From a virus, in IMG/VR virus record IMGVR_UViG_3300009527_000006, positions 1 through 64,000 of that record: a stretch of 64,000 nt of DNA, one strand, 5' to 3'. The position numbers were made by a program, and so were the translations under genes. The notes beneath the pieces are model-generated. The model was given only the letters and a program-made list of their open reading frames with translations. It made no database searches and had not been told where the DNA came from. Shown in pieces: positions 18,668 to 56,490 of this stretch (position 1 is the first letter of the stretch; every line of letters begins with the position of its first letter).

Positions 18668-18673
18668 AAATCA

Positions 18674-18680
18674 TATTTAG
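18674..18680 (-). promoter_or_regulatory. Late promoter of the sheath gene
   Basis: CTAAATA on the minus strand, 6 nt before the start at 18667. Confidence 0.7.
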
Positions 18681-18719
18681 ATAATTTCGGCAAAATAAAC
18701 TGTTTAATAAATAGCAAAG

Positions 18720-19028
18720 CTAATTAGTAACTGATTTAGTGATGTATTTTCCTAGAGAAGAAACATACTTTCCTACGTATCTCCACCTAGATACGTCATG
18801 TGCAACCGTAACGGTTTTATCGAAAGATTTAGTATTATCTCTAGAATCTACTATAAGAACTCTATCGGCATTTATAGTAGAACCGTTAATATTTAGGCTT
18901 ACATTTCCTGTGGCCGCAATATAGCCTTCGGTTTTGCTTCCTAAATCTACATCTTTTCCAAAGGGAGTATTGGTGTAACTGCAAGAAAATAATGCCATGC
19001 TTAAAGTTAATAAAAAATAAATTTTCAT
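18720..19028 (-). CDS. Small lipoprotein
   Basis: A 102-residue protein with a signal peptide (MKIYFLLTLSMALFSCS) ending in the lipobox ALFSC, so Cys16 should be lipidated. The mature part has beta-like strands and repeated Thr/Ser/Val. It lies 2 nt downstream of the tail tube gene, so it is expressed late. Roles such as spanin or envelope modification are possible but not shown. Confidence 0.65.
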   Translation of the reverse strand: MKIYFLLTLSMALFSCSYTNTPFGKDVDLGSKTEGYIAATGNVSLNINGSTINADRVLIVDSRDNTKSFDKTVTVAHDVSRWRYVGKYVSSLGKYITKSVTN

Positions 19029-19030
19029 AA

Positions 19031-19642
19031 TTATATTGTTTTGTTCATTTCTACTGAATTGAATTTGAAAGAAAAGTCAGTTTCTATCTGGTCAGTTTCT
19101 TTCTGAGATATATTTAGACTGCCTAGCTTGTTAATAAAACAATCATTAAAGACCCATTCCATAACAGGCCGTTCTCTTTCAAAATTATCCATAGCAATAA
19201 TATTAATTTTACATGAATAATCTCCTATATTCTTAGAATAATTGTAATTTCCATCATTTAATAACTTCAGCCATTCCCATAAGATATAATAGTTATTGTA
19301 TCTATTATCTACTACAAAATTCACTGTTACAGGTGAATATGTCGAACGACCGTGTGAAGATATTGCTAGTGGTGTTCCACGATATTTAAAATCTAATTCT
19401 TGGATAGTTGTCTCTGGAACAGAATAAGCATTTATAGTAAAAATAAACCGATCTTCATCTGCATTTATACATTTTTTCTCAACTAATCTCCTTTTAAGTC
19501 CACAAGGAAGAGTTAATACCAATTCAAAGTTATCCTTCCTAGCATAATTGGTATAACTTTCAGTATCAGATGAATAAGATTGCTGTGGTTCAATGACCTG
19601 ACAAGACTTGTCAAAAACCGGAATTTCTGGAAAAGAACTCAT
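19031..19642 (-). CDS. 19: Tail tube protein (T4 gp19 type)
   Basis: A 203-residue protein with the tail-tube fold signature: YSVPETTIQELDFKYRG in the centre (the strand that forms the inner tube wall) and VNFVVDNRYNNYYILWEWLK after it. It would stack as hexameric rings inside the sheath. Position upstream of the sheath gene is the reverse of T4 order but the pair is still adjacent. A TAAGTA-type late element precedes it. The baseplate protein at 27627 shares the same general fold. Confidence 0.75.
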   Translation of the reverse strand: MSSFPEIPVFDKSCQVIEPQQSYSSDTESYTNYARKDNFELVLTLPCGLKRRLVEKKCINADEDRFIFTINAYSVPETTIQELDFKYRGTPLAISSHGRSTYSPVTVNFVVDNRYNNYYILWEWLKLLNDGNYNYSKNIGDYSCKINIIAMDNFERERPVMEWVFNDCFINKLGSLNISQKETDQIETDFSFKFNSVEMNKTI

Positions 19643-19671
19643 TTTATCATACTTAATTGGTAATTATATAT

Positions 19672-21840: not shown

Positions 21841-21856
21841 ACTTTTTGAAAATTTG

Positions 21857-21863
21857 CTAAATA
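21857..21863 (+). promoter_or_regulatory. Late promoter
   Basis: CTAAATA, 6 nt before the ATG at 21870. Confidence 0.7.
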
Positions 21864-21869
21864 AACAAT

Positions 21870-22625
21870 ATGGAACAAAATATTACCTTACAAAGCCTTT
21901 GCAGACAAACTGTTCTAGGCGAATATACCAAGCCTATCAATGAATCCGTAAATGATACTAAAGTTTTGGAGGAGAAGAAAAAGGCTAAAAAGGCCGCGAA
22001 GCCAGCTAAAAGATCTGCTTACTGTGATGAAGTGGATAGCTACTCAGAGTCTGTCTCTACTAAAAATGTTTTTAGTGACATTATGAAAACTCTTAAAGAA
22101 GAGTATGGTATGGGCGAAAACGATGACACATTTGCATACGATGCTGCCAGTGAAGATGAATTTGATCAGAATGAAGGTGAATCTATGGAAGGAGATACTG
22201 TCAGTGTTTCTCGCGCAGAATTACAACAAATTCAAGATATTGTAACTCGTCTATTAGGTGGAGGATTTGAAGAAGAGGGATTTGAGGACGAAAGTTTTGA
22301 AGACGAATTAAATGCAGAATCTTATGCTTTTGGATCTACTTCTAATCATATCGGTGGACAAGGTGATGATTCTAAAAAAGCATCTCCTCTTCCAGAGACT
22401 GACTTAGTTGATAGCCAAGGAAATACCCGCAGAGATAAAGCTAAAGTAGCAAATACTAAGCCAAAGAGGAAGCCTAGCAAAACAGGTGAAATTGGAAGCC
22501 AAGGAAACTACGACAGTAAGGCACGTAGCGCGTCTCCCACTAATCATGTAAAGTCTAATGGAGATGTCAATTTCGGAACCAATAAAACTGGTTACGGAAG
22601 AGGTAAGGGCGAAGACATTTACTAA
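21870..22625 (+). CDS. Acidic low-complexity late protein, possible internal head protein
   Basis: A 251-residue protein with a Lys/Ala-rich stretch (residues 35-48), a strongly acidic central region (FEEEGFEDESFEDELNAES) and a Gly/Asn/Lys-rich tail. It has a dedicated late promoter and terminator, so it is made in quantity late. Composition suits a prohead core or internal protein, and several Leu-x-Glu-like sites could be cut by the gp21 protease, but no family is recognisable. Confidence 0.6.
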   Translation: MEQNITLQSLCRQTVLGEYTKPINESVNDTKVLEEKKKAKKAAKPAKRSAYCDEVDSYSESVSTKNVFSDIMKTLKEEYGMGENDDTFAYDAASEDEFDQNEGESMEGDTVSVSRAELQQIQDIVTRLLGGGFEEEGFEDESFEDELNAESYAFGSTSNHIGGQGDDSKKASPLPETDLVDSQGNTRRDKAKVANTKPKRKPSKTGEIGSQGNYDSKARSASPTNHVKSNGDVNFGTNKTGYGRGKGEDIY

Positions 22626-22642
22626 TACTATAAAATAAAGAC

Positions 22643-22680
22643 AAAACCGCATCTCTTCAGAAGAGATGCGGTTTTTATTT
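22643..22680 (+). terminator. Rho-independent terminator
   Basis: Stem AACCGCATCTCTT/AAGAGATGCGGTT with a 4-nt loop (CAGA-like) followed by TTTATTT. Confidence 0.9.
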
Positions 22681-22693
22681 GTAAGTATAGTAA

Positions 22694-23290
22694 ATGTATT
22701 ACTTTGAAGAATTGATTGATAAAACTAAATGTTTAGGAAATACCCTATCTACAATCAACTATGATCTTTCATCATTAGATTCTAACTTATACTCTCTATC
22801 TTCTGATTATGAAGATTTTGTAATTTTCACAGAGACTAGATTTGAAGCGGTTTCATCTGAAATATCATCACTCTATGGAGAATTGACTTCTCTTTCATCT
22901 GAAGTATATGATGGATTTGCAGATTTAGAAACCCAAATAGATACATTATCTGCAAATACAGTATATTTTACCAGAAATACATTATCACATGACTTGTCTG
23001 GCAATATAGAATACGATTTCGGTCTTAATGGTCCGCATGTATATTATATTTTTACTGACGGAGATCAACGTCATTTCAATAATATATCAGACATGACTAG
23101 TATGGAAGATGGACAATTTGGCAAAATAATCATCGAACCGCAATTCGGCGGAAGCATCTCAAGCTGGGGAGGAGATTGGAAGTTCTCTAATGATGCCTCT
23201 GCGTTCAGTCATCCTACTGGAGGAATGGATATTGTAGATTTCTATAAACAGGGAGCATACTTATATGCTAGTGTCAAAAGATTCTTCTAG
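22694..23290 (+). CDS. Fibre-like protein with C-terminal tip domain
   Basis: A 198-residue protein. Residues 10-95 are a Ser/Leu-rich coiled coil (SLSSDYEDF, ISSLYGELTSLSSEV) and the rest is beta-rich, ending in a WKFSNDASAFSHPTGGMDIV / DFYKQGAYLYASVKRFF tip typical of phage tail-fibre C termini. This would make it a short fibre or fibre tip that contacts the host. A TAAGTA variant of the late promoter lies 6 nt upstream. The convergent gene overlaps its last 30 nt. Confidence 0.65.
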   Translation: MYYFEELIDKTKCLGNTLSTINYDLSSLDSNLYSLSSDYEDFVIFTETRFEAVSSEISSLYGELTSLSSEVYDGFADLETQIDTLSANTVYFTRNTLSHDLSGNIEYDFGLNGPHVYYIFTDGDQRHFNNISDMTSMEDGQFGKIIIEPQFGGSISSWGGDWKFSNDASAFSHPTGGMDIVDFYKQGAYLYASVKRFF

Positions 23291-23617
23291 GATTTCTTCA
23301 AAAGGCTCGTCCTTCATTTTATTGACATATTGACTTGCAATTTTCATTGCAAAAATTACCAATTCGTCTTTAGTGACTTGTGATGGTAATTTATTACCGG
23401 GAAATTTCGTATATGCAATAGTTGTGAGAACACCGCTATTAGAATCGTAGCTGGATAAAACTATTAAACTTTCGTTGTCAAAAGTTTCTTCCATTTCAGC
23501 CTTTAAACAAGTAATTTTCTCTCTAAAAAAATCAACATAAATTCTATAATAATTTTGTTTACTGTCTTTCTTAGAAAAGAAAAATCCTGTTATTTTAGGT
23601 ATTTCCATAAGCGTCAT
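23261..23617 (-). CDS. Unknown phage protein
   Basis: A 118-residue alpha/beta protein, no recognised motif. Start at 23617 overlaps the previous minus-strand stop by 4 nt (an ATG at 23608 is an alternative), implying translational coupling with the 23614-23964 gene. Confidence 0.6.
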   Translation of the reverse strand: MTLMEIPKITGFFFSKKDSKQNYYRIYVDFFREKITCLKAEMEETFDNESLIVLSSYDSNSGVLTTIAYTKFPGNKLPSQVTKDELVIFAMKIASQYVNKMKDEPFEEILEESFDTSI

Positions 23618-23964
23618 TCAAATTGAATTTCTAATATTTTATTGTAAAAGATGCTTTTGTTTTCCTGTAATTCATCTGCTGCTTGTGCCAGCTCTATCAG
23701 AGAATTCTTATTAGTCCATGTGGATATACGATAGTCTAGGTATATCAATCCTTCATCTTCATAATCTTCTATATCGTATGGATAAGGTATTCGATAAGTG
23801 ATAAGTTTATCTTTTTTCTGCAAAGTAAATTCATAAAAATATGTATTAGTATTTTCACAATCTTTATACAAAATAAATTTACCGTTTTTAACTAAAATAC
23901 CATCAATATAAAATTTTACATCTTTTTGAAAATATTTTTTAAGAATCGTGCCCAATTTAGTCAT
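23614..23964 (-). CDS. Unknown phage protein
   Basis: A 116-residue protein with many aromatic residues and alternating strands (KFYIDGILVKNGKFILYKD), suggesting a compact beta sheet. A CTAAATA element lies 9 nt upstream of the start, so probably late. No family recognised. Confidence 0.6.
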   Translation of the reverse strand: MTKLGTILKKYFQKDVKFYIDGILVKNGKFILYKDCENTNTYFYEFTLQKKDKLITYRIPYPYDIEDYEDEGLIYLDYRISTWTNKNSLIELAQAADELQENKSIFYNKILEIQFE

Positions 23965-23998
23965 CTGTATTATTATTTAGAAATTACAAAAAGACAAT

Positions 23999-24589
23999 CT
24001 ATGTTTTTTTTCTGTTTAAGAAAGATTTTGCTCTATTGGCAAAATCTGAAACAGATTTATTAATACGATTAATAATAGTTTTTGGATATTTTGTAATAGC
24101 ACTCATTACATTTTTCCAACGATTTATCGCTGTAGGAGAGCTAGGAATATTGTTGTTTGCAGGTCCACTGGAAGTAGAAGATGCTTGTTGCTCCATGGTA
24201 ATATAACCCATAAATGCTAATCTTTTTTCTTGTGATAGGTTTATAATATAATCATAGAAATACTTCTGAAAAGCCTCTCGTTCTTCTGGAGTAGAAACTG
24301 GCCATTTTCGGTGCCATGTTATCATTTCACTACCAAAAACTCGGTATTCTTGTCTAAAGATGTCCCAAACTACACATAATCCTTTTGATTTGTAATCATA
24401 TCCCATACCATCACCAGTAGGAGGCATAAATCGTAAAACCTGAAAACCAAATTCGCTATTTAGCAGTTCAAAATTAGTGGTGCCGAATAATCCTCTTATA
24501 TCAGACCACCCTAATTTAGGATGTCTTCTAGTAAATTCTAATTCAACTACATGCGTCCCTAGAATTTGCTGCAAAGAATGGTTATTCAT
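23999..24589 (-). CDS. Conserved T4-like phage protein of unknown role
   Basis: A 196-residue protein. Residues 1-110 contain VVELEFTRRHPKLG, FMPPTGDGMGYDYK and VVWDIFRQEYRVF, an arrangement I associate with conserved hypothetical proteins of T4-like phages from aquatic bacteria. The C terminus is Ser/Asn-rich then basic and helical. It has its own late promoter, so a structural or assembly role is plausible. Confidence 0.6.
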   Translation of the reverse strand: MNNHSLQQILGTHVVELEFTRRHPKLGWSDIRGLFGTTNFELLNSEFGFQVLRFMPPTGDGMGYDYKSKGLCVVWDIFRQEYRVFGSEMITWHRKWPVSTPEEREAFQKYFYDYIINLSQEKRLAFMGYITMEQQASSTSSGPANNNIPSSPTAINRWKNVMSAITKYPKTIINRINKSVSDFANRAKSFLNRKKT

Positions 24590-44825: not shown

Positions 44826-45779
44826 TTAGATATTAACATCGTCATCATCATCATCATCCAAAATAAAGTCATTAAGACCATCGTCATCACCATCATCATT
44901 ATCAACAACTCTATTCTGTGTTTGAGAGCGAGAATTTGTCGAGCTATTAACAGATTCATTGGCAATAGGACCATCCTCCCCAAACCAATACTGGTCAATG
45001 AGAGATTTGAGTTCGTCTTCAGACTTTACCGCAGGAACTAATTCCAAAAGATTGTGAACTGAATTTTCAATCCTCTCGTAATCAGAAGGTGACAAATTAT
45101 CAACTGCTTTACTGTCAGCAAATTTTGAAGTAGAATAATTATTCCAATCAGCCTTTGTAGTAACACGGACAATCAGCGACCTTCCTTTAGGTGAAAGATC
45201 AAATGCCTTAATTCCTACATCATCTCCACCTAAAACTTCTTCATCAATAAGTTTCGCTAAATCACTCTTAATTTCACCAGTTTTCTTGTCTATACCAGCA
45301 GAATATTTAAGGACAACTACTGTTCCTATTTTTTGTTGTGCATCAGGATCATCGCCTTCCACTTTGTGCAAGAAGGCATTTACCAATTCATGACGCTGTG
45401 GAATCAATTTGTAACTACGCTTCATAGCATCTTCATCACCACTCTTTTTGGCTTCACTAAAAAGCTTCCATTGTAGTTTGTTGATGTAATCATTTTTTGC
45501 TTGAGTAGGATCTGCATCTGATAGAGATCTTCCTAGATAAATGTATTCAGAAGGAGTTGTCAACGTCTCAAACCCAATATCTTTATAGTTTACAAAAGTT
45601 TGATCATTTCCATCTGAATCTGTGGAACGCAAAAGTCTTACATAGTATTTGCAATTTTTCTTGAATTTCAAGATTCTTGGATCAGAATTTCCAGACCCTC
45701 CACTTTTTTCCTTTTTAAGCTTTTCTGCTTTTGAATTTCTAATTTTTTCTAATGTTTCTTCTAATGTTGGTTTTCTCAT
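44826..45779 (-). CDS. 32: Single-stranded DNA-binding protein (T4 gp32 type)
   Basis: A 317-residue protein (T4 gp32: 301). The basic N-terminal domain (KIRNSKAEKLKKEKSGG) would support cooperative binding, the OB core contains FKKNCKYYVRLLRS, and the C-terminal tail is a run of Asp/Glu (DDDDDDDVNI) used to contact replication partners. A CxxH/C zinc site like that of T4 gp32 is not evident. It coats single-stranded DNA during replication and recombination. It is followed by a strong terminator. Confidence 0.85.
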   Translation of the reverse strand: MRKPTLEETLEKIRNSKAEKLKKEKSGGSGNSDPRILKFKKNCKYYVRLLRSTDSDGNDQTFVNYKDIGFETLTTPSEYIYLGRSLSDADPTQAKNDYINKLQWKLFSEAKKSGDEDAMKRSYKLIPQRHELVNAFLHKVEGDDPDAQQKIGTVVVLKYSAGIDKKTGEIKSDLAKLIDEEVLGGDDVGIKAFDLSPKGRSLIVRVTTKADWNNYSTSKFADSKAVDNLSPSDYERIENSVHNLLELVPAVKSEDELKSLIDQYWFGEDGPIANESVNSSTNSRSQTQNRVVDNDDGDDDGLNDFILDDDDDDDVNI

Positions 45780-46998: not shown

Positions 46999-47087
46999 GG
47001 CGAACAAAACGGATGCAGACAACGCTCTATAAGTTGTTTGTCACATTCATAGTCTTTTATTCGCGTGTCTGATCCGAAGCGTTCGGG
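46999..47087 (+). repeat. attC-like site 1
   Basis: R'' GGCGAAC (46999-47005) and R' GTTCGGG (47081-47087). Inner stem: CGGAT[G]CAGACA[A]CGC (47010-47024) pairs with GCGTGTCTGATCCG (47063-47076); bracketed G and A are unpaired. Central region is nearly identical to sites 3 and 6. Confidence 0.85.
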
Positions 47088-47113
47088 CAATACGCATCCA
47101 CACAAAATCACGC

Positions 47114-47554
47114 ATGTATAATAGACCGTCTAATTCTGAAGTTGCGGAAATTACTGGATACAATCTTCCTATAGAAGAAATCTCAGAATTTCCCACAGCT
47201 AAACAGCAACAAGAAGGAGGTTATATTTTGAAGTATATTGGCCGCATCTCAGATACTTGTGATACCTTCTTGAAAACTGCACATGGTAAGGTAGTTGCTA
47301 TAATATTGCTTATCCATGGAATCATCGGATTTGCTAGAGATGCATTTGATGGTGCAACATACATCTATAATGCATCTGCTCCTATGCTTGAAAGGATTGA
47401 GACTTTTGTATTTTCTCATAAGAACCAAGAAGTCTCTCCCGAATACCTAGTATTGATCCCAAAAGAAACGCACCTGACACTGCCCGTAAAAGATTGGGCT
47501 GATTTTCCGGCAGGAACCCAATTTGCGCCAGCCAGTAGCATAGATTACACATAG
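47114..47554 (+). CDS. Cassette 1 plus-strand gene, single-helix membrane protein
   Basis: A 146-residue protein starting 33 nt after R' of site 1. One predicted transmembrane helix (VVAIILLIHGIIGFA, about residues 61-75) with polar flanks and a C-terminal beta-like region. The leader is A/C-rich without a ribosome-binding site. It overlaps the minus-strand gene of the same cassette by 173 nt, so one of the two may be shorter than drawn. No family recognised. Confidence 0.55.
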   Translation: MYNRPSNSEVAEITGYNLPIEEISEFPTAKQQQEGGYILKYIGRISDTCDTFLKTAHGKVVAIILLIHGIIGFARDAFDGATYIYNASAPMLERIETFVFSHKNQEVSPEYLVLIPKETHLTLPVKDWADFPAGTQFAPASSIDYT

Positions 47555-47633
47555 CCAACGATCCAAAATATATAAATGCAAATATTTCACAACAAACCCA
47601 TACTTTATTCAAATAATTATATTTATTAGACAT
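47382..47633 (-). CDS. Cassette 1 minus-strand gene, small membrane protein
   Basis: An 83-residue protein with a long hydrophobic stretch (ending FAFIYFGSLAMCNLCYWLA) and a second one (LLRAVSGAFLLGSILGI). I keep it despite the overlap because an exact TATAAATA late promoter lies 6 nt before its ATG, and its start is 37 nt from the next attC, the same position as minus-strand genes in cassettes 2, 4 and 5. Confidence 0.5.
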   Translation of the reverse strand: MSNKYNYLNKVWVCCEIFAFIYFGSLAMCNLCYWLAQIGFLPENQPNLLRAVSGAFLLGSILGIRERLLGSYEKIQKSQSFQA

Positions 47634-47639
47634 TTTACC

Positions 47640-47647
47640 TATTTATA
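47640..47647 (-). promoter_or_regulatory. Late promoter inside cassette 1
   Basis: Exact TATAAATA on the minus strand between the gene start at 47633 and attC site 2. Confidence 0.7.
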
Positions 47648-47669
47648 AAGACTTTAGACTAAAACAAGA

Positions 47670-47759
47670 CCCGAACAAAGAAACTGGAGACAACAGCTCA
47701 GCATAGTTATTCTCCTATATTAGTTCTGTGTTCGCTGTGTCTCAGTTTAGACGTTCGCC
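47670..47759 (+). repeat. attC-like site 2
   Basis: R'' CCCGAAC (47670-47676), R' GTTCGCC (47753-47759). Inner stem AAACT[G]GAGACA[A]CAGC pairs with GCTGTGTCTCAGTTT; same two unpaired bases as site 1 although the paired bases differ, so the stem covaries. Nearly identical to site 5. Confidence 0.85.
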
Positions 47760-47783
47760 TAACAACACACAGCCTCTACTACA

Positions 47784-48056
47784 ATGTATAAAACTCAGCC
47801 TAAATATCGGGCCATCATTCGTTTCTCCTTGGATAAGGATGAGAGTTCAAAGTTTCGCAACTCTGTTATTAGAAAACTTAGAAAAGCTAAATTCACCAAC
47901 ACAAATAAGACTGGTTCTTGGGAGACTCCATCCGCAGATTTATCTATTATTCAGTCATTAGTCTGCACCGTTATGAACGAACTAGGTAAAGTAACGAATG
48001 ACGACGGAAAGCCCGTAACATTGGACCATATGTGGATGTGCATAGATAAAGTTTAA
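47784..48056 (+). CDS. Cassette 2 plus-strand gene, small basic protein
   Basis: A 90-residue protein starting 24 nt after R' of site 2, leader A/C-rich. Basic first half (SSKFRNSVIRKLRKAKFT) and a helical acidic end. Its stop overlaps the stop of the convergent gene by 4 nt. No family recognised; a nucleic-acid-binding role is possible from charge only. Confidence 0.65.
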   Translation: MYKTQPKYRAIIRFSLDKDESSKFRNSVIRKLRKAKFTNTNKTGSWETPSADLSIIQSLVCTVMNELGKVTNDDGKPVTLDHMWMCIDKV

Positions 48057-48223
48057 TCTTCTTCGTTCCACCTAGGGTCATCATCTGACCATTCATTCCA
48101 TCCAGATTCGATTTCGTCTGAGTCTGAATTGATAACTATTTTTGTTTTAGATTCAGTATGACACCCACAGTTGCCACATACGCCGCTAATAACGACTTCT
48201 ATAGGTTGAGAATTATTTTTCAT
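48053..48223 (-). CDS. Cassette 2 minus-strand gene, Cys-cluster microprotein
   Basis: A 56-residue protein. SGVCGNCGCHTESK near residues 13-26 has three Cys and a His, enough for a metal knot, followed by an acidic, Trp-rich tail (SGWNEWSDDDPRWNEED). ATAAATA lies 7 nt before the ATG, and the start is 39 nt from attC site 3. Convergent with, and 4-nt overlapping, the plus-strand gene. Confidence 0.65.
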   Translation of the reverse strand: MKNNSQPIEVVISGVCGNCGCHTESKTKIVINSDSDEIESGWNEWSDDDPRWNEED

Positions 48224-48230
48224 AATCAGC

Positions 48231-48237
48231 TATTTAT
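48231..48237 (-). promoter_or_regulatory. Late promoter inside cassette 2
   Basis: ATAAATA on the minus strand, 7 nt before the start at 48223. Confidence 0.6.
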
Positions 48238-48261
48238 TGGCAGCTCTTGCTATAAACAAGA

Positions 48262-48350
48262 GGCGAACAAAACGGATGCAGACAACGCTCTATAAGTTTT
48301 ATGTCACATTCAGAGTTTAGTATTCGCGTGTCTGATCCGAGACGTTCGTC
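48262..48350 (+). repeat. attC-like site 3
   Basis: R'' GGCGAAC (48262-48268), R' GTTCGTC (48344-48350); inner stem identical to site 1 with unpaired G and A. The end of the methyltransferase reading frame runs into this site. Confidence 0.85.
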
Positions 48351-48937
48351 TTATGAAATGCCACCCAGTGAGTCTGCGCTTTCTTGCCGCTACGGTGGCC
48401 GTAGAGCGGGCGTTCTGGCGTGAGTGCCAGCACTTCGCGGAGCGGGATTTCAGCCTCGCACCATTTGAAGATCATCGTTCCATTCACTTTCAGGACACGG
48501 AAGCATTCAGCGAATCCCGCCCGCAGGTCGTCGCGCCATGTCGCATCCAGAAGCCCGAAGTCGAAGGCGATGCGTCCCGTTGCCCCGGCTCCTTTATGGA
48601 AGTGCGGCGGATCGAATACCACATGCCAGAACGACTCATCAGGGAACGGCATGTTTCGGAAGTCCACCACCATATCAGGCGCGACGGTTTTCGGGGTGCG
48701 CCCGATGGTTCCCGGCGTTCCCACGTCGATGATTCGCGTGCCTTGGCGTTTGTCCACATACAGGGCGCGGTCATCCTGTTTATCGAACCAGAACATTCTG
48801 GTTGAGCAGCACGCATCCAATACCGGAGGCAAAGACGAACAAGTCGCTGCATGCAACCCGCTTTCTGCGTGCTGTTGGCGCGTTAATGTGAAGAGGTCAT
48901 CCATAGGTGTATCGGTGTATTGTGTCAGCGGGTGCAT
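48317..48937 (-). CDS. Cassette 3 gene, SAM-dependent methyltransferase (G+C-rich)
   Basis: A 206-residue class I methyltransferase. The SAM-binding region is PPVLDACCSTRMFWFDK (residues 37-53), VDFRNMPFPDESFWHVVFDPPHF gives the catalytic-type DPPHF at 109-113, and FRVLKVNGTMIFKW and GHRSGKKAQTHWVAFHK follow. Relatives occur in enterobacterial prophages and plasmids and probably methylate nucleic acid. It runs opposite to the cassette orientation, starts inside site 4 and ends inside site 3; ATG at 48904 is an alternative start. Its base composition is far richer in G+C than anything around it, a clear sign of transfer. Confidence 0.8.
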   Translation of the reverse strand: MHPLTQYTDTPMDDLFTLTRQQHAESGLHAATCSSLPPVLDACCSTRMFWFDKQDDRALYVDKRQGTRIIDVGTPGTIGRTPKTVAPDMVVDFRNMPFPDESFWHVVFDPPHFHKGAGATGRIAFDFGLLDATWRDDLRAGFAECFRVLKVNGTMIFKWCEAEIPLREVLALTPERPLYGHRSGKKAQTHWVAFHKTNVSDQTREY

Positions 48938-48953
48938 GAGCTAGGCGTTCGCC
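48834..48953 (+). repeat. attC-like site 4 (divergent)
   Basis: R'' GACGAAC (48834-48840) matches R' GTTCGTC of site 3 at the other end of its cassette; its own R' is GTTCGCC (48947-48953). Inner stem GCT[G]CATGCA[A]CCCGCT pairs with AGCGGGTGCATGAGC. A different sequence and a longer central region (120 bp site), yet the same unpaired G and A six pairs apart. Confidence 0.85.
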
Positions 48954-48962
48954 TAAAAACCA

Positions 48963-49217
48963 ATGCACTCATCACAAACTAATTCGCAGATGATAATCGC
49001 GCACATGCTAGCCAATGATAACGGAGCCATTTTTCATTTTGAGGACTATAGATTCAATGTTCGTCCTGAAGATCGAGTCACTTCCAGCAATTGGCCTAGT
49101 GGTATAACATTGCACATTAGACTTTCTAGCACAGGGCTGAGCGCAGCTTCTTACGAGAACGAGACAGTGCTCGGTGAATATGTGGATGAAAGAGGAACTC
49201 CCATTTTGCCTTATTAG
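48963..49217 (+). CDS. Cassette 4 plus-strand gene, unknown
   Basis: An 84-residue protein starting 9 nt after R' of site 4. Strand-rich (GAIFHFEDYRFNVRPED, GITLHIRLSSTG), with acidic C terminus. Its stop overlaps the convergent stop by 4 nt. No family recognised. Confidence 0.6.
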   Translation: MHSSQTNSQMIIAHMLANDNGAIFHFEDYRFNVRPEDRVTSSNWPSGITLHIRLSSTGLSAASYENETVLGEYVDERGTPILPY

Positions 49218-49453
49218 GAATTATTACTTGGATCATTCGGAATTGCATGGCCGAATCTCAGCACTTCACCATTGTCATATAGATAGGCCATTCCACGAAT
49301 TCCAAAAGGACCATTATACTTACCTTTCTCATTCTGTATTTTTATGTTCTCGTGCATAGTCCATCTTCGCCAGATTCCAATAGCTTCATCATACGGAAGT
49401 GCCTCTGGATCTGGGTATTTGGTTAAGTCTATTGGGTTGTCTAAATTTAACAT
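49214..49453 (-). CDS. Cassette 4 minus-strand gene, unknown
   Basis: A 79-residue protein with DPEALPYDEAIGIWRRWTMH and FGIRGMAYLYDNGEVLRFG, consistent with a small beta-sheet domain. The ATG at 49453 is preferred to an in-frame TTG two codons earlier. ATAAGTA, a weaker late-type element, lies 9 nt upstream; the start is 41 nt from attC site 5. Confidence 0.6.
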   Translation of the reverse strand: MLNLDNPIDLTKYPDPEALPYDEAIGIWRRWTMHENIKIQNEKGKYNGPFGIRGMAYLYDNGEVLRFGHAIPNDPSNNS

Positions 49454-49462
49454 ATTCAAAGC

Positions 49463-49469
49463 TACTTAT
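49463..49469 (-). promoter_or_regulatory. Late-type promoter variant inside cassette 4
   Basis: ATAAGTA on the minus strand, 9 nt before the start at 49453. One mismatch to ATAAATA. Confidence 0.4.
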
Positions 49470-49493
49470 TCGTAGTCAAATGCTAAAACAAGA

Positions 49494-49583
49494 GGCGAAC
49501 AAAGAAACTGGAGACAACAGCTCAGCATAGCTATTCTCCTATATTAGTTCTGTGTTCGCTGTGTCTCAGTTTAGATGTTCGCC
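49494..49583 (+). repeat. attC-like site 5
   Basis: R'' GGCGAAC (49494-49500), R' GTTCGCC (49577-49583). Inner stem as site 2, with the same unpaired G and A; the whole site differs from site 2 at only a few bases. Confidence 0.85.
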
Positions 49584-49598
49584 CAACCTCACCACACC

Positions 49599-49784
49599 AT
49601 GTCTATTATAAAGAAACCTAGTTCGTGCGTATTTTGCAGATCTGCACTGATTAAAGGTCCGATTAAGAGAGATCGTAATTTAAATGAAACTATTGAAATG
49701 AAGAGTGTCGTTTATATTTGTGAGCAATGTAATTTTGTTCACGAATTTAATATTCATACTACTAAAAAATCTAAGATGAAGTAG
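49599..49784 (+). CDS. Cassette 5 plus-strand gene, zinc-ribbon protein
   Basis: A 61-residue protein with two Cys pairs, SSCVFCRS near residue 10 and YICEQCNFVH near residue 42, a classic small zinc ribbon with basic ends. The ATG at 49599 lies 15 nt after R' of site 5; an earlier in-frame ATG lies inside the site. It could bind nucleic acid or a protein partner. Convergent overlap with the next gene is 14 nt. Confidence 0.65.
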   Translation: MSIIKKPSSCVFCRSALIKGPIKRDRNLNETIEMKSVVYICEQCNFVHEFNIHTTKKSKMK

Positions 49785-49935
49785 TAGACACGAAACATGC
49801 AAGCCCATCACATTGAGCATTCCACATTTCATCCAGAATTCTATCATTATTTTCCTGTTCTTCTTTGGAAAGTCTCATCCAATGACACTGCTCCACTTCT
49901 AACCATTCACGTATCTTTGCTTTTATCCATTGCAT
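49771..49935 (-). CDS. Cassette 5 minus-strand gene, small acidic helical protein
   Basis: A 54-residue protein (MQWIKAKIREWLEVEQCHW at the N terminus), amphipathic helix rich in Trp and Glu, then LDEMWNAQCDGLACF. ATAAGTA lies 9 nt upstream and the start is 40 nt from attC site 6. No family recognised. Confidence 0.6.
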   Translation of the reverse strand: MQWIKAKIREWLEVEQCHWMRLSKEEQENNDRILDEMWNAQCDGLACFVSTTSS

Positions 49936-49944
49936 AGTAGTCAA

Positions 49945-49951
49945 TACTTAT
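49945..49951 (-). promoter_or_regulatory. Late-type promoter variant inside cassette 5
   Basis: ATAAGTA on the minus strand, 9 nt before the start at 49935. Confidence 0.4.
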
Positions 49952-49974
49952 GAAGCTAATAAACAGAAACAAGA

Positions 49975-50063
49975 GGCGAACAAAACGGATGCAGACAACG
50001 CTCTATAAGTTTTATGTCACATTCATAATTTTATATTCGCGTGTCTGATCCGAGACGTTCGGG
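49975..50063 (+). repeat. attC-like site 6
   Basis: R'' GGCGAAC (49975-49981), R' GTTCGGG (50057-50063); inner stem identical to sites 1 and 3. The R' triplet GGG is matched by CCC of site 7, more than 4.3 kb away, the two ends of one enlarged cassette. Confidence 0.85.
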
Positions 50064-50086
50064 TAAAACAGAACATAAACACCACA

Positions 50087-50257
50087 ATGAATGAATCTAC
50101 GTTAGTTGATTGCGCTAAATGGTTATATGAAAAGCAGCAAGAGAACCTAAAAGCCGGAAAGAATCTACTTTGGCAGCCACATATAATAACCGTTCTTTTA
50201 AACTTACAAAAATCTAAAGTCATACTTTTAAGATATAAACTCTCGATTTTTTGTTAA
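50087..50257 (+). pseudogene. Cassette 6 gene, probably interrupted by the IS607-like element
   Basis: Begins 23 nt after R' of site 6 with the A/C-rich leader typical of the array (CACCACAATG). Residues 1-45 read as a normal helical protein (STLVDCAKWLYEKQQENLKA); the frame then runs into the end of tnpB and stops after 56 codons. The simplest view is that a cassette gene was cut by insertion near 50,215-50,225; its 3' part may be the fragment at 54156-54350. Confidence 0.5.
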
Positions 50258-51446
50258 ATTCCTGCTTCACAGACGGGCTAACCAAAGTCGTTTCCGACAA
50301 TGGTGAACTCCCATCTCCACAGGCTTGAATTCCCGAAGAACTTTCGGTATAAATTTGTTTCAGATTCAAACTCGCATTTAAATCTCTATCTATTTTCATA
50401 TCACACATTTTACATTCAAATACTCGGTCTGTCAACTTCAAATCTGAATTTTTCCATCCGCAACATGAACATAATTTAGAACTGGCGTAGAAAGTATCTG
50501 CGAAGACAACTTTTCTATTATTCCATTTCGCTTTATATTCAATTTGGCGACGAAATTCATAAAGTCCTACGTCACTGATAGCCTGAGCCAAACAGTGATT
50601 TTTCAACATATTGCTTACTTTCAAATCTTCCAACACAATTACATTGTTTTTCTGTATTATGTTAGAAGTGATTCTATGTAAGCAATCTTTACGAATATTT
50701 GATATGTGATAATGTAATTTTGCTAACTTTTGTTTTGCTTTTCCATAATTTTTACTTCCTTTTTTCTTTCTTGATAATTGTTTTTGTTTGCGTTTTAGTC
50801 TCTTGAGATTTTTCTTTAATGCTTTTGGATTTTCATAAGTTGTCCCATCTGAGCAAGTAGCTAAAGTTTTAATACCTAAATCAATTCCTACTACCTCATT
50901 CTTGGCGTTAGAATGCTCTCTGTCAGGTGTCTCTACTTGAACTGATACAAACCACTTACCCGCACGTTTCGAGACTGTAGCAGACAGTATTTTACAATCT
51001 GTTGGGATGTAATCTTTCTCGGATAATTTGAGTTTGTCGATTCGTGGTAGCTTAATGTAATCAGATTCAACTGAAATCGCGCCGTCTAGTCTGAAGGATT
51101 GCTTTTCGTTTTTCTTAGATTTAAATTTTGGAAATCCTTTCTTACCTTTAACTTTCTTTTTACAACGAGTGAAGAAATTTTGAAATGCTTTATCACAATC
51201 TCTTAACGCATTTTGTGGAGAAGTCTTGCTTGAATTATACATCCAAGGAACATCTGTCTGTTTTAGCTTGTTTAATTCTCTATGAATCTCAATAGCATTT
51301 TGAATTTTCTCTTTCTTATCAAATTGTTCTTTCTTTTTAGCTAATGCCCAATTATATGCCCATCTAGCGCAACCAATATGCTGTAATAACAAGGTTTGTT
51401 GCTTGTTATTTACATCTAGCTGAACTTTATAGGCGCGGAGAATCAT
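50220..51446 (-). CDS. tnpB: TnpB RNA-guided nuclease-type transposon protein
   Basis: A 408-residue TnpB. The start at 51446 (MILRAYKVQLD) matches the usual family start; the codons upstream belong to the methyltransferase overlap. RuvC residues are intact: Asp189 (GIDLGIKTLAT), Glu273 (VLEDLKV) and Asp355 (DRDLNASLNL). A zinc ribbon (CSCCGWKN ... FECKMC) lies between the last two. TnpB proteins cut DNA with a guide RNA made from the 3' end of their gene, so such an RNA is expected across roughly 50,200-50,400. Its ATG overlaps the methyltransferase stop (ATGA). Confidence 0.9.
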   Translation of the reverse strand: MILRAYKVQLDVNNKQQTLLLQHIGCARWAYNWALAKKKEQFDKKEKIQNAIEIHRELNKLKQTDVPWMYNSSKTSPQNALRDCDKAFQNFFTRCKKKVKGKKGFPKFKSKKNEKQSFRLDGAISVESDYIKLPRIDKLKLSEKDYIPTDCKILSATVSKRAGKWFVSVQVETPDREHSNAKNEVVGIDLGIKTLATCSDGTTYENPKALKKNLKRLKRKQKQLSRKKKGSKNYGKAKQKLAKLHYHISNIRKDCLHRITSNIIQKNNVIVLEDLKVSNMLKNHCLAQAISDVGLYEFRRQIEYKAKWNNRKVVFADTFYASSKLCSCCGWKNSDLKLTDRVFECKMCDMKIDRDLNASLNLKQIYTESSSGIQACGDGSSPLSETTLVSPSVKQEFNKKSRVYILKV

Positions 51447-52308
51447 TTTAATCTTTCTAAACAAATATCATAATACTCTTTTTCTTTTTCGATGCCGATA
51501 AACTGACGATTGAGATTTTTGGCGGCAACCAGAGTTGTTCCCGAACCAGCAAAAGGATCGAACACCAAATCCTCTTTATTTGAGATAGACTTCACCAAGT
51601 CTTCCATCATATTCAACGGTTTTTCACATGGATGTTTGTCTTTTCTTTGCGAGACTATTTCATATTCAATTACATCTTCAAATGAAGATAGCGATAACGA
51701 ATCAAATTTTCGTTTGGATAATTTAATACCTAAATCTCCTCTAATTTGGGAAGAAATTTTGGAGATGGAAAGCATCTACCACATTCCCAATTTGATACTT
51801 GACCACCATTATTAACGTTTCCATAAGCACCCAATATTTCAGTAAGCTCTTTTACCGATACCCCCTTAGAAATGCGGGCATTCTTAATGTCATTTGGATA
51901 AGAATCTTGTGAAAAATAAATTATTCTTTCTGATGCTGGATATGGTCGTCTAAGGGAATTTTTATTACACTTATTTTTCCAACCCTCACTCCCCTTATTT
52001 GGAAAAGTTTTCTTCCACACAATTTCAGATTGGAAATTGAAATATTGATTTATCAGGACGGCTAAAAATGGAGCCAATGATGGCTTACAAAAAACGTAAC
52101 CACTACAAGTATTTTTCATCTTCGGTTTAAGAATTTTGAAAAAATAATCAAACCATTTTAAAAATTCAGTATCGTTATCATGTTCATTGTCCCAAGTGTG
52201 CTTTTTAACATTGTGATAAGGTGGATCGGTGACAAGGATATCCACGCTTCCATCTGGAATGTCCTTCATCAATTCTAAACAGTCGCCATGCCAAATTTCT
52301 TGTTTCAT
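51443..52308 (-). pseudogene. DNA methyltransferase (beta class), broken by a one-base frameshift
   Basis: The N-terminal frame (52308-51730) has GDCLELMKDIPDGSVDILV then TDPPYHN (residues 27-33), a target-recognition region and an HTH-like insert (KELTEILGAYGNVNN). The C-terminal frame (to 51443) has HPCEKP and FDPFAGSGTTLVAAKNL. Motif IV before motif I marks the beta class of N6-adenine or N4-cytosine enzymes. The frames join at LEEI/LGIKL, near 51,731-51,740, where one extra T in a T3 run restores a continuous protein. Either a real mutation or a homopolymer error. Confidence 0.8.
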
Positions 52309-53336
52309 TCCATCGCCTCCTTTTCTTTCTTTTTACGATTCTGTGAGCTAATCATACCCAATCCTTCTCTAATTAGATACAGGCGACCAGTCGAAGTTTT
52401 TAACTCTTTTGCTACGCCTCTCCAAGTTTGATGTTTATCAAACAAATCGTGCAGTTGTTTTACTGTAATATCTGAACGCTTTTTCCGTAAAATTTGCTGA
52501 GATAGACACTCTAAATATAATTCATACTTTCTATCCAAATACACTTTAGCGTTTGAGTATATTGGTCTTAATATGTTTTGAACTAACTCGACCCCCGCCG
52601 AAGATATGCAGCAAGTTTCTGAATCTCCCTCTCCATATTTTGATAGGATTTTTGCGCGACATTTGCTATACGAAAGAATATACTCTTGAAATTTCTCAAT
52701 AACAAGCCTATTTCCAACAAGATTAATTGTCCACACCCAAGATTTTTTATATTTGGGTTCAAGCGTTTTAGAAATGCAGCCATCACCGTCAAATATGCCT
52801 CGCCAAAAATGACAGTGTAAATCCTTTGGAATTAAATTTAACGGAGGAATAAAGCTAAAAGATTTTCTCGGTAAAATACCAAATTTAGCCAAATCATTGC
52901 ATATTTTTCTGTTACCAATTACAATTCGACACGACTCAAATATTTTACTATTATCACCCCCTTCAAAAGAGGGCGAACTTCTACATATTTTAATTGGATG
53001 CGCCGAACGGCAAAATTTCTTAAATTTTTCTAAGTGCAACAAATCTGACTTTTTTAAACCTATATTCAATCCTCCATAATCGGTTACGTTGCCGTCGGCG
53101 GCAATGAATCCAAGCCAATAAGCCTTATCTTCTGTGTCAATTTTTTCAAAAATAGAATCGTCAATAGTATATTTAGAGTTATTTTTAATTTTGATACCCC
53201 TTTTTTTGGCTTCTCTGGTGCAGCATTCGCTACTTAATCCGTAAACAGCCGCCGCCCTTTGTGCAGAATCCCCGTTTACATATAGATTAATCATTCCGTC
53301 CTTTTCTTCTTGTGTAATAGTGCGTCTCATATACAT
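52305..53336 (-). CDS. LAGLIDADG homing endonuclease
   Basis: A 343-residue protein with two LAGLIDADG helices: WLGFIAADG (residues 74-82) and FWRGIFDGDG (177-186), each ending in the catalytic Asp. The N-terminal 50 residues (RRTITQEEKDGMINLYVNG) and C-terminal 50 (VKQLHDLFDKHQTWRGVAKELK) look like HTH DNA-binding units. It would make a staggered cut at a long target. It overlaps the methyltransferase start by 4 nt and lies 16 nt after the recombinase stop. ATG at codon 3 is an alternative start. Confidence 0.88.
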   Translation of the reverse strand: MYMRRTITQEEKDGMINLYVNGDSAQRAAAVYGLSSECCTREAKKRGIKIKNNSKYTIDDSIFEKIDTEDKAYWLGFIAADGNVTDYGGLNIGLKKSDLLHLEKFKKFCRSAHPIKICRSSPSFEGGDNSKIFESCRIVIGNRKICNDLAKFGILPRKSFSFIPPLNLIPKDLHCHFWRGIFDGDGCISKTLEPKYKKSWVWTINLVGNRLVIEKFQEYILSYSKCRAKILSKYGEGDSETCCISSAGVELVQNILRPIYSNAKVYLDRKYELYLECLSQQILRKKRSDITVKQLHDLFDKHQTWRGVAKELKTSTGRLYLIREGLGMISSQNRKKKEKEAME

Positions 53337-53352
53337 ATATTTACACTAAAAA

Positions 53353-53913
53353 TCACTCTTTTTCACAAAAATCTGATAAAACTTCATCATCGGGATAGAT
53401 TTCTGTAGTCACCTCTTCCACCTTTTCAATTCTAACTCCATAGGAATTAAAATAAGACAAAAGATAATTAAAACAAAATCTTGATAATCTATCTTTATGC
53501 TCAATTAAGACTACATCAATTTCTTTCTTTTCTACTAACTCAAAAAGTTTCTGCAATTTCTTGCGATTGTCGTTCATTCCTGAACCAACTTCATCAAAAA
53601 CAGCAACAATAGAATAACCACGCTTCAATGCCTCTGTAGTCATTCTGCCGACTTGTCTTTCTAAATCACCTTTAGTCTTCTGTTCATGTGAACTAACGCG
53701 ACAATAGATAGCCACACGCTTACCATCTGTTACTTTAACAGGTTCTACATAGATTCCCGCCAATTTCTCAATATCGGCTCTGTAATAGCGTCTATGACCA
53801 CCTTTTGTATGGAATGGCGTTAATTTGCCTTCTCGCTCCCAATTTCTAAGAGTTTCGTCGGAAACGCCTAAAATGGACGCAGCATCACTAATTGATAGAA
53901 TCTTTTTATCCAT
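53353..53913 (-). CDS. tnpA: IS607-type serine recombinase (TnpA) with MerR HTH
   Basis: A 186-residue protein. Residues 5-50 form a MerR-like helix-turn-helix (SISDAASILGVSDETLRNWE, HRRYYRAD). The resolvase domain has AIYCRVSSHEQ with catalytic Ser74 (or 75), VFDEVGSGMNDNRKKLQKL and IEHKDRLSRF. It should cut and rejoin circular transposon DNA. The C terminus ends shortly after the RLSRF block and seems to lack the final helix of many relatives, next to the inserted endonuclease gene, so activity is not certain. Confidence 0.85.
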   Translation of the reverse strand: MDKKILSISDAASILGVSDETLRNWEREGKLTPFHTKGGHRRYYRADIEKLAGIYVEPVKVTDGKRVAIYCRVSSHEQKTKGDLERQVGRMTTEALKRGYSIVAVFDEVGSGMNDNRKKLQKLFELVEKKEIDVVLIEHKDRLSRFCFNYLLSYFNSYGVRIEKVEEVTTEIYPDDEVLSDFCEKE

Positions 53914-54082
53914 TTTTGTCTATCAATCCTTTCTGTTGAAACAACCTAAACCATTCGTCATAGATTCGTTGAAATTCCTCTACGGTTGGAACTTCATCTA
54001 ATTCAAACGGAATATCATGGATAACTCCATCATCGGTTTCAAATTCTGTTGCTGTAACTCTTGTAATCATTTTTGGCTTCAT
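53906..54082 (-). CDS. Small accessory protein upstream of tnpA
   Basis: A 58-residue acidic protein (PFELDEVPTVEEFQRIYDEW) whose stop overlaps the tnpA start by 8 nt, so it is translationally coupled. I have an impression of similar small genes beside IS607 recombinases elsewhere but cannot name a function. TTTTAGTGTAAATATAT lies immediately upstream, the same 17-mer as before the endonuclease gene. Confidence 0.65.
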   Translation of the reverse strand: MKPKMITRVTATEFETDDGVIHDIPFELDEVPTVEEFQRIYDEWFRLFQQKGLIDKNG

Positions 54083-54155
54083 ATATATTTACACTAAAAG
54101 TTTAGATTTTCTACGAAAAAAGTGAAAATATTTTAACTTTCTTTAGATATTTTAG

Positions 54156-54350
54156 ATTATCGGGCAACTGTTGTCAACCCTCGGAAAGTTGTGGTTACTA
54201 TTTGTTTCCTGTTTTGCGATATTATCCACTGCTCTGATCACCGAGTTTATAAAACAAGATGGGTATAAGTTGTTTAAGTCCAGCCTAAATAATGAACACA
54301 CAAAAGCATCGGAACCACCCCCATCACAAACAACAAAACACATAAAATAA
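54156..54350 (+). pseudogene. Orphan 3' fragment of a cassette 6 membrane protein
   Basis: An open plus-strand frame with no ATG, encoding 64 residues: a hydrophobic helix (LWLLFVSCFAILSTALITEF) followed by a basic then Pro-rich tail ending TTKHIK. It ends 59 nt before R'' of site 7, where plus-strand cassette genes normally end. It may be the 3' half of the gene interrupted at about 50,220. Two antisense frames overlap it and seem less likely. Confidence 0.4.
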
Positions 54351-54408
54351 TCAACCATCCTAATGCCATGAAGAGGCATTCTACAAAAGCCTTAAACTCA
54401 CCATCAAA

Positions 54409-54501
54409 CCCGAACAAAACGGATGCAGGCAACACCTCTGGGCTGTCTGTCGTATTATTCATAGTATTTTCGTTCGGTGTGCCTGATCCGAGACGTTCGC
54501 C
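54409..54501 (+). repeat. attC-like site 7
   Basis: R'' CCCGAAC (54409-54415), R' GTTCGCC (54495-54501). Inner stem CGGAT[G]CAGGCA[A]CAC pairs with GTGTGCCTGATCCG: compared with site 1, an A-to-G change on one arm is matched by T-to-C on the other, keeping the unpaired G and A. Confidence 0.85.
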
Positions 54502-54692: not shown

Positions 54693-54788
54693 TTTTGAGG
54701 CTCTATAAGTTTTATGTCACATTCATAGCTTAGAACTCACTATGTCTCAGCGTAAACTTACCATTCATGTCTGCGCTAGGCGTTTGCC
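54693..54788 (+). repeat. Decayed attC-like remnant (site 8)
   Basis: GCTCTATAAGTTTTATGTCA matches the centre of sites 1, 3 and 6; CTATGTCTCAGCGT resembles the right stem of sites 2 and 5; GCGCTAGGCGTTTGCC resembles the end of site 4. No R'' box or clean inner stem is left. It marks the right edge of the array. Confidence 0.55.
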
Positions 54789-54807
54789 TTAACTGCATAA
54801 TGTTCAA

Positions 54808-55134: not shown

Positions 55135-56490
55135 TTAGGTTGTCATAAATTCTTCCATCGAGAATTTCTTTTTCAATATACTTGACCTAGAATCTTCATA
55201 TGATTGCTCAGTATCTTCTTCTTCAAAAAATCTCAGTGTGCTATAATCAATATTCAAGTATCCCCCGCCATTGAGAGCACCGTCTCTAGATTTCTTACCC
55301 TTAACTAATACTCTGTTAAGTTCACGGTCTTCATCTGTTTGTGACATGACTGTAAGATTATCAAAATCGCCTAGCATTGAATATGAACCAGCCATATTAT
55401 CCAAGTCAGCAGAATTATTTCGATGTCCGTCTCTATTGAGTTGTGCAGGAGTTAATAGAGGGCATTCAAAAATATAACTGAGCCCTCTTACTTCTTGAGT
55501 AATATACTGAAATTCGTCGTGCTTAGGAACATTGCTTTTTGTAGATTTACATAGAGTAATATAATCCAGTATTATCACCGATGGTTTGAAATTTTTCTTT
55601 CTTTCTAATTTTTTAATAAAGGATTTAATGTTAGTAGGAGTCACTGATTTAGCCGCGAACTCTTTGATTACTAATCTAGAAGTTTTATCAGAAATAAAAT
55701 CATCCACATACTCTCTATACTCTAATAGCCTGTCTCCTATTTCTCCTAGAGCAATACCCGTTAACATACCAGAAATTCTACGAGCATATCTTTTTTCACT
55801 CATTTCTAAAGTTATAATTACTACATCCTCATTCTGTCTGAGAATGTTAGTTCCAATGTTTCCCACCAAAAGTGATTTTCCGACATTAGTGGAGCCAGCT
55901 ACGCCATATATTGCTCGCCCTTCTTTAAACATTCCTCCACCAAATGCTTCATCCACTATCTTATATCCGGTGCTTAGAAAAACATCCTTTTCAGTTAAAA
56001 TAGATTCTACCCTACTTCTTTCGGCAAAATATTCCAACCCTAGATTATCTACTAATGAAATATTAGATATAGTTTCTTGTTCAGTTTGAAAATCATCTAA
56101 ATCTATTTCTTGTTTTTCTGTCTTATCATCAATAGCCTTTTCTAGAAGATTTTCTGTTTTTCTCTGCTTTATAAAATACTCTGCATTAGCAAGCAATTCG
56201 TCTTCATTACATTCATCCGCAATATTTTCATTTTTTATAAGATCAATCGCTTTTTTAAGATGTTCTTTATTTTTAGTAGTATTAAACCGGGTTTTTAATT
56301 CTGTAAAATTAGGAACTGCGGACCTTTCTACATAAAAATCTTTAATAGTCTGTGCTATTGCAGAGAAGTTTTCGTTTTTGAAAATATCTGCTCCAATATA
56401 TTCTATGCAAGAACCTAGTAATATTCCATCTTTTTTGAGAAGATTCTTCATAAGAATCTTCTCAAAAAAATCTAAATCAATTTTGCTCAT
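55135..56490 (-). CDS. 41: Replicative DNA helicase (T4 gp41 / DnaB type)
   Basis: A 451-residue helicase (T4 gp41: 475). The N-terminal 130 residues are the helical primase-contact domain. The RecA-like motor has Walker A GSTNVGKS (199-206), VVIITLEMSEKRYARRI, and Walker B-like SVIILDYITLC, then AQLNRDGHRN and SMLGDFDNLTVMSQ. It unwinds the fork as a hexamer with the gp61-type primase. It ends a minus-strand replication operon that begins with the UvsX gene or further upstream. Confidence 0.92.
   Translation of the reverse strand: MSKIDLDFFEKILMKNLLKKDGILLGSCIEYIGADIFKNENFSAIAQTIKDFYVERSAVPNFTELKTRFNTTKNKEHLKKAIDLIKNENIADECNEDELLANAEYFIKQRKTENLLEKAIDDKTEKQEIDLDDFQTEQETISNISLVDNLGLEYFAERSRVESILTEKDVFLSTGYKIVDEAFGGGMFKEGRAIYGVAGSTNVGKSLLVGNIGTNILRQNEDVVIITLEMSEKRYARRISGMLTGIALGEIGDRLLEYREYVDDFISDKTSRLVIKEFAAKSVTPTNIKSFIKKLERKKNFKPSVIILDYITLCKSTKSNVPKHDEFQYITQEVRGLSYIFECPLLTPAQLNRDGHRNNSADLDNMAGSYSMLGDFDNLTVMSQTDEDRELNRVLVKGKKSRDGALNGGGYLNIDYSTLRFFEEEDTEQSYEDSRSSILKKKFSMEEFMTT

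Follow-up and report, generated by a model that had tools for sequence, protein, structure and literature searches.

Integrons have been studied as gene libraries of bacteria, anti-phage genes included. In phages, both integrons and CALINs (clusters of attC sites lacking integron integrases) were described in 2023, and of six attC sites taken from virulent phages, five underwent recombination with attI1 by IntI1 (PMC9892861). Since such elements have been reported, the array considered here is a new case of something already described. It is situated in a window of 64,000 nucleotides, bases 1–64000 of the 92,025-base IMG/VR virus record IMGVR_UViG_3300009527_000006, itself a linear fragment of a larger genome, and it is formed by seven attC-like imperfect palindromes (S1–S7), all on the + strand at 46,999–54,501. 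The phage CALINs of Qi et al. are similar in that they are attC clusters without an integrase, found in virulent and temperate phages and containing DNA methyltransferase cassettes (PMC9892861). On the other hand, no phage named in the main text of that study is T4-like or Verrucomicrobial, and, unlike those CALINs, the array described here has seven sites in one orientation and six coherent cassettes out of six.

The strongest evidence for the array is the match of the R' and R'' boxes across cassettes. The integron integrase IntI cuts within R', and the R' box following one site and the R'' box of the next site then belong to one cassette. In all six phage cassettes, the R' box of one site (k) and the R'' box of the next (k+1) can pair along 7 nt or more, whereas such pairing inside a site is seen in only one of the seven sites. 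Seven Verrucomicrobiota arrays, taken as a bacterial control, yield 29 of 33 across cassettes and 15 of 40 within sites. The six R' boxes could be arranged in 720 ways, of which only 12 would produce a match in every cassette. This match records past crossovers in R' by integron rules. A + strand open reading frame (ORF) starts soon after the R' box in five of the cassettes, cassette 3 having an antisense gene instead. The search of the 92-kb record with PF00589 and TIGR02249 produced no integrase match, and the pair of intI and attI beside the array that defines a complete integron is not seen. Two attC sites with no integrase nearby suffice for a CALIN, and seven are present; the array is a six-cassette CALIN with integron-type attC sites in a T4-like phage. 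This is in line with the sequence-only reading, which had proposed an integron-type cassette array in such a phage and is supported by the R'/R'' pairing, the covariance matches and the T4-type genes.

All sites have the same layout: outer boxes CGAAC and GTTCG, unpaired spacers of 4–5 nt, a stem of 3–5 bp, an unpaired G, a stem of 6 bp, an unpaired A, and an inner stem. Their lengths are 85–116 nt, that is, inside the attC interval of 57–141 bp, with the inverse core ending in AAC and the core starting with GTT. The bottom strand of each of the seven, read 5'–3', features an extrahelical T, six nucleotides and a C (T-N6-C), hence the two extrahelical bases characteristic of attC. Sites with T-N6-C are among the types excised best by IntI1 (PMC3053210). 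The attC of the class 1 integron cassette aadA2 shares with them the R and L stems and the 6-nt distance between the unpaired bases of the bottom strand, but its loop is shorter, its boxes are GTTAG, and it has T-N6-G rather than T-N6-C. The strict core consensus RYYYAAC/GTTRRRY is violated at core position 4, occupied by C. As most sites of Verrucomicrobiota integrons also have C in this position, the attC family is broader than its formal consensus. GTTCG is the commonest box in the chromosomal integron arrays of the Verrucomicrobiota, in genomes carrying IntI, and hence it does not point to an unfamiliar integrase, as had been suggested.

A strict structural scan of the window yields exactly seven matches, whereas 200 dinucleotide shuffles yield 0.25 on average and three at most, confirming the full attC anatomy ascribed earlier to the seven palindromes. 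The 16 pairs of the model show 100% standard pairing over the seven sites, with 7 of the 16 changed on both sides, and the covariation score of the sites is 0.381 vs. 0.135 (0 of 500 shuffles). Thus, the structure is conserved while the sequence varies. The sequence-only reading had described three unrelated stem sequences keeping one structure; the latter part holds, but the stems are not unrelated, as Verrucomicrobiota arrays contain the CGGAT type and also the GCT type, the latter with close counterparts of the S4 stem, which accounts in part for the diversity of stem classes. The folding energies of individual sites are only modestly better than those of shuffled sequences (z from −1.5 to −5.0), as would be expected of sites whose centre is long and unpaired. 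Together with the scan, they provide the excess of folding over shuffled sequence that had been proposed as a check.

For another proposed check, the attC covariance search, we used a model (R1) trained solely on 20 chromosomal attC sites of the Verrucomicrobiota. In the 92-kb record it matches S1–S7 (E 7e-16 to 1.4e-7) and leaves all the rest unmatched, including the degenerate eighth site (fold z −0.1). As a control, it also detects the aadA2 attC (E 1.5e-5). The DNA pattern of S1 was found in more than 114 stretches of bacterial and archaeal genomes, all titles among the matches listed being Verrucomicrobiota; many of these genomes have 2–5 copies spaced by several hundred bases to about 2.5 kb. 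In 8 of 12 Verrucomicrobiota genomes with near-identical attC sites, IntI scores over the curated TIGR02249 cut-off, and in two loci (L173, L176) the attC array is directly preceded by an intI gene facing the other way. Hence the search for an integrase, also proposed earlier, succeeded in the likely hosts and failed in the phage record. The Verrucomicrobiota chromosomal integrons (L173, L176, L094 and others) share with the phage array the attC classes, the GTTCG boxes, the cassette coherence and a relative of the methyltransferase cassette, but their arrays adjoin IntI and the phage array does not.

The subtype CAGACA...TGTCTG of S1, S3 and S6 distinguishes these sites from the sampled Verrucomicrobiota integrons. 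The same stem with a CTCTATGGG-type loop is present in virus contigs L298, L301, L303, L306 and L307. Drift within this phage was considered as the source of the CAGACA stems and dropped: the subtype occurs in other virus contigs, with 52–60% GC. S2-type sites in virus contigs amounted to nine pattern matches, none with a covariance match, and look like chance occurrences inside other sequence.

The product of cassette 3 is a DNA methyltransferase (phrog_954, E 7.7e-61; PADLOC MTase_II, E 2.5e-58), and the GC content of this cassette is 58%, vs. 35–41% in the neighbouring cassettes. A related enzyme, 49% identical along 201 residues, is encoded between two attC sites in a Verrucomicrobiales contig (L106), where its gene is also antisense and extends into an attC arm; viral contig L130 and phage contig G036 have relatives with the same layout. 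These three relatives were encountered in loci that had been retrieved on account of their attC sites. A protein search found relatives in 9 of 289 Verrucomicrobiota genomes, none adjoining attC sites, and a blastn search of phage and plasmid records with the array gave methyltransferase matches only. The ORF of cassette 1 has no match in Pfam, PHROG or PADLOC, and the small proteins of cassettes 1, 2, 4 and 5 have no informative family match. Cassette 6 has been enlarged by insertion of an IS607-like element.

The record contains matches to gp43, UvsX, gp41, gp32 and the tail sheath, and hence is T4-like; its gp43 is 30–33% identical to that of T4-like (Kyanoviridae) phages. The replication genes flank the array: to its left is gp32, while gp41, UvsX and gp43 are to its right. 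In one relative (L217), a stretch of about 3 kb contains gp41, the homologue of ORF45836 and gp32 but no array, and in another (L216) the homologue of ORF54808 follows gp41. Judging by this gene order, the array forms an island, and the T4-like module around it is otherwise ordinary. Single protein searches with gp41 and gp32 provided no useful close relatives, and a gp43 profile search provided only distant ones, with attC in none of 30. MW202573, the Myoviridae example of Qi et al. (PMC9892861), was considered as a related phage and ruled out: it has P22-type coat and portal and no R1 match.

Table 1. Features of the attC array and its surroundings, and IntI regions in other virus contigs. 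Positions refer to the window unless a contig is named; R1 E, E-value of the Verrucomicrobiota attC covariance model.
Feature	Position	Strand	Remarks
gp32-like ssDNA-binding protein (T4)	44826–45779	−	left flank of island; phrog_224, E 2e-8
attC S1	47001–47085	+	R'' CGAAC to R' GTTCG; CGGAT/CAGACA stem; T-N6-C; R1 E 2.3e-13; fold
Cassette 1 ORF	47114–47554	+	146 aa; starts ~30 nt after S1 R' box
attC S2	47672–47757	+	AAACT/GAGACA stem; T-N6-C; R1 E 3.3e-11
Cassette 2 ORF	47784–48056	+	90 aa; convergent 56-aa ORF 48053–48223 (−)
attC S3	48264–48348	+	CGGAT/CAGACA stem; T-N6-C; R1 E 2.5e-13
Cassette 3 DNA methyltransferase	48317–48937	−	antisense to array; both ends extend into S3 and S4
attC S4	48836–48951	+	GCT/CATGCA stem; T-N6-C; overlaps methyltransferase gene start; R1 E 1.4e-7
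Cassette 4 ORF	48963–49217	+	84 aa; convergent ORF 49214–49459 (−)
attC S5	49496–49581	+	AAACT/GAGACA stem; T-N6-C; R1 E 1.1e-10; fold z −4.6
Cassette 5 ORF	49575–49784	+	61–69 aa; cysteine pairs; convergent ORF 49771–49944 (−)
attC S6	49977–50061	+	CGGAT/CAGACA stem; T-N6-C; R1 E 3.4e-13; fold z −5.0
Cassette 6 ORF	50087–50257	+	56 aa; followed by inserted IS607-like element
IS607-like element in cassette 6	50220–53913	−	PF01385, PF07282, PF01555, PF14528, PF00239, PF00376 (Pfam)
IS607-like element: TnpB	50220–51464	−	
IS607-like element: split N6/N4 methyltransferase	51443–52308	−	two overlapping frames; adjoins LAGLIDADG gene
IS607-like element: LAGLIDADG endonuclease	52305–53336	−	
IS607-like element: serine resolvase with MerR domain	53353–53913	−	
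attC S7	54411–54499	+	CGGAT/CAGGCA stem; T-N6-C; nearest to bacterial consensus; R1 E 7.1e-16
Degenerate eighth attC	~54700–54790	+	S1-type loop kept, left arm lost; direct repeat D3 54700–54738
gp41-like replicative helicase (T4)	55135–56490	−	right flank of island; phrog_19, E 1.7e-56
IntI region, contig G019/G020	9.7–10.7 kb		over TIGR02249 cut-off
IntI region, contig G033	36.0–37.0 kb		over TIGR02249 cut-off
IntI region, contig G051	27.5–28.4 kb		over TIGR02249 cut-off

With high confidence we interpret the locus as a CALIN of a T4-like phage, its host most likely belonging to the Verrucomicrobiota, that gained its cassettes through the IntI of the host acting in trans. During infection, replication of the T4 type should expose single strands of the phage attC sites; the host IntI would bind the bottom strands in their folded form and would insert cassettes of the host integron into the phage array at R'. 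The same enzyme could also excise or reorder cassettes, so that the phage would sample the cassette pool of its host. The insertions would have occurred in the phage, not in a bacterium before pickup of the whole array, and the array may be active still. The methyltransferase would be useful to the phage if it blocked restriction of phage DNA, and it may provide such protection.

Several observations weigh against this interpretation. The record is a 92-kb part of a larger genome, and IntI could lie in the missing part. The host is not fixed by independent evidence such as a CRISPR spacer or culture. The S1 subtype is absent, save for one near variant, from 289 and 384 sampled Verrucomicrobiota genomes, so that the sample does not supply the exact donor. 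Nor did any related phage turn up with its cassettes in another order, and the array is thus only possibly still active. Finally, the record, judged without reads, may be a chimeric assembly.

The main competitor of cassette gain in trans is construction of the array in a bacterial chromosomal integron, followed by capture of the whole by homologous or illegitimate recombination, the array in the phage being a passive relic. We regard this as quite possible, though doubt prevails. Two homogeneous families account for five of the seven sites, as they would in one chromosomal integron, decay is seen in the eighth site and in the cassette preceding it, the IS607-like element has invaded cassette 6, and capture of this kind was proposed by Qi et al. 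for other phage CALINs (PMC9892861). However, the wide spread of cassette GC content suggests stepwise gain, the seven stems are all fully paired with compensatory differences, and no integrase, attI or bacterial flanking gene was brought along. It is unlikely that the phage encodes an integron integrase of its own beyond the sequenced 92 kb and thus has a complete integron: incompleteness of the record and the IntI genes of three independent attC-bearing virus contigs (G019/G020, G033, G051) would agree with it, but 92 kb contain no integrase, and no IntI is present beside the array between gp32 and gp41, whereas bacterial arrays have an adjacent IntI in the opposite orientation. That the palindromes are terminators or regulatory hairpins of phage genes, acting as RNA and unrelated to integrons, is scarcely credible, for despite their location between small genes and the weak terminator activity possible for attC sites, they have no match in Rfam, strongly match a model trained on bacterial attC, are of the type that adjoins IntI in bacteria, and are already at odds with this account by their R'/R'' pairing across cassettes rather than within sites, inexplicable at the RNA level.

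In a wider survey, sites matching the covariance model were found in 39 of 40 IMG/VR virus records tested. Among the attC-bearing records, at least G029, G041, G036 and G049 are clearly of phages, as is L306, where an S1-type site is located near the terminase gene. G029 (loci L190 and L191) is a phage contig of 46.6 kb with terminase, helicase and tyrosine integrase and with 14 attC sites on one strand at 18505–24492. G041 has six attC sites along with DNA polymerase, primase and terminase, and its cassette coherence is 5 of 5, vs. 0 of 6 within sites. The survey suggests that phage-borne attC arrays recur within one bacterial phylum. An IntI gene over the TIGR02249 cut-off is present in four attC-bearing virus records, three of them independent; these are either complete integrons borne by phages or prophages adjoining an integron of the host. 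G033 and G051 also carry terminase and portal genes.

More tentatively, and with slightly more doubt than belief, we propose that phages of the Verrucomicrobiota repeatedly use the host IntI in trans for gene gain, unrelated lineages keeping attC arrays of their own, including the CAGACA...TGTCTG subtype so far seen only in virus contigs, and trading cassettes, such as the antisense methyltransferase, with host integrons and with each other. No report of Verrucomicrobial attC arrays in phages was found in the literature searchable here, and the occurrence of such arrays in several unrelated phages appears to be unreported there. Since a T4-like phage has a coherent array, and related methyltransferase cassettes are situated between attC sites in one bacterium as well as in other viral contigs, the use of the integron library by phages for counter-defence becomes testable, and so does the transfer of cassettes between bacteria by phages.

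Outside the array, a perfect inverted repeat of 18 nt with a 3-nt loop is situated at 56431–56469 of the window, between gp41 and the genes of the UvsX region; it is probably a two-way terminator.

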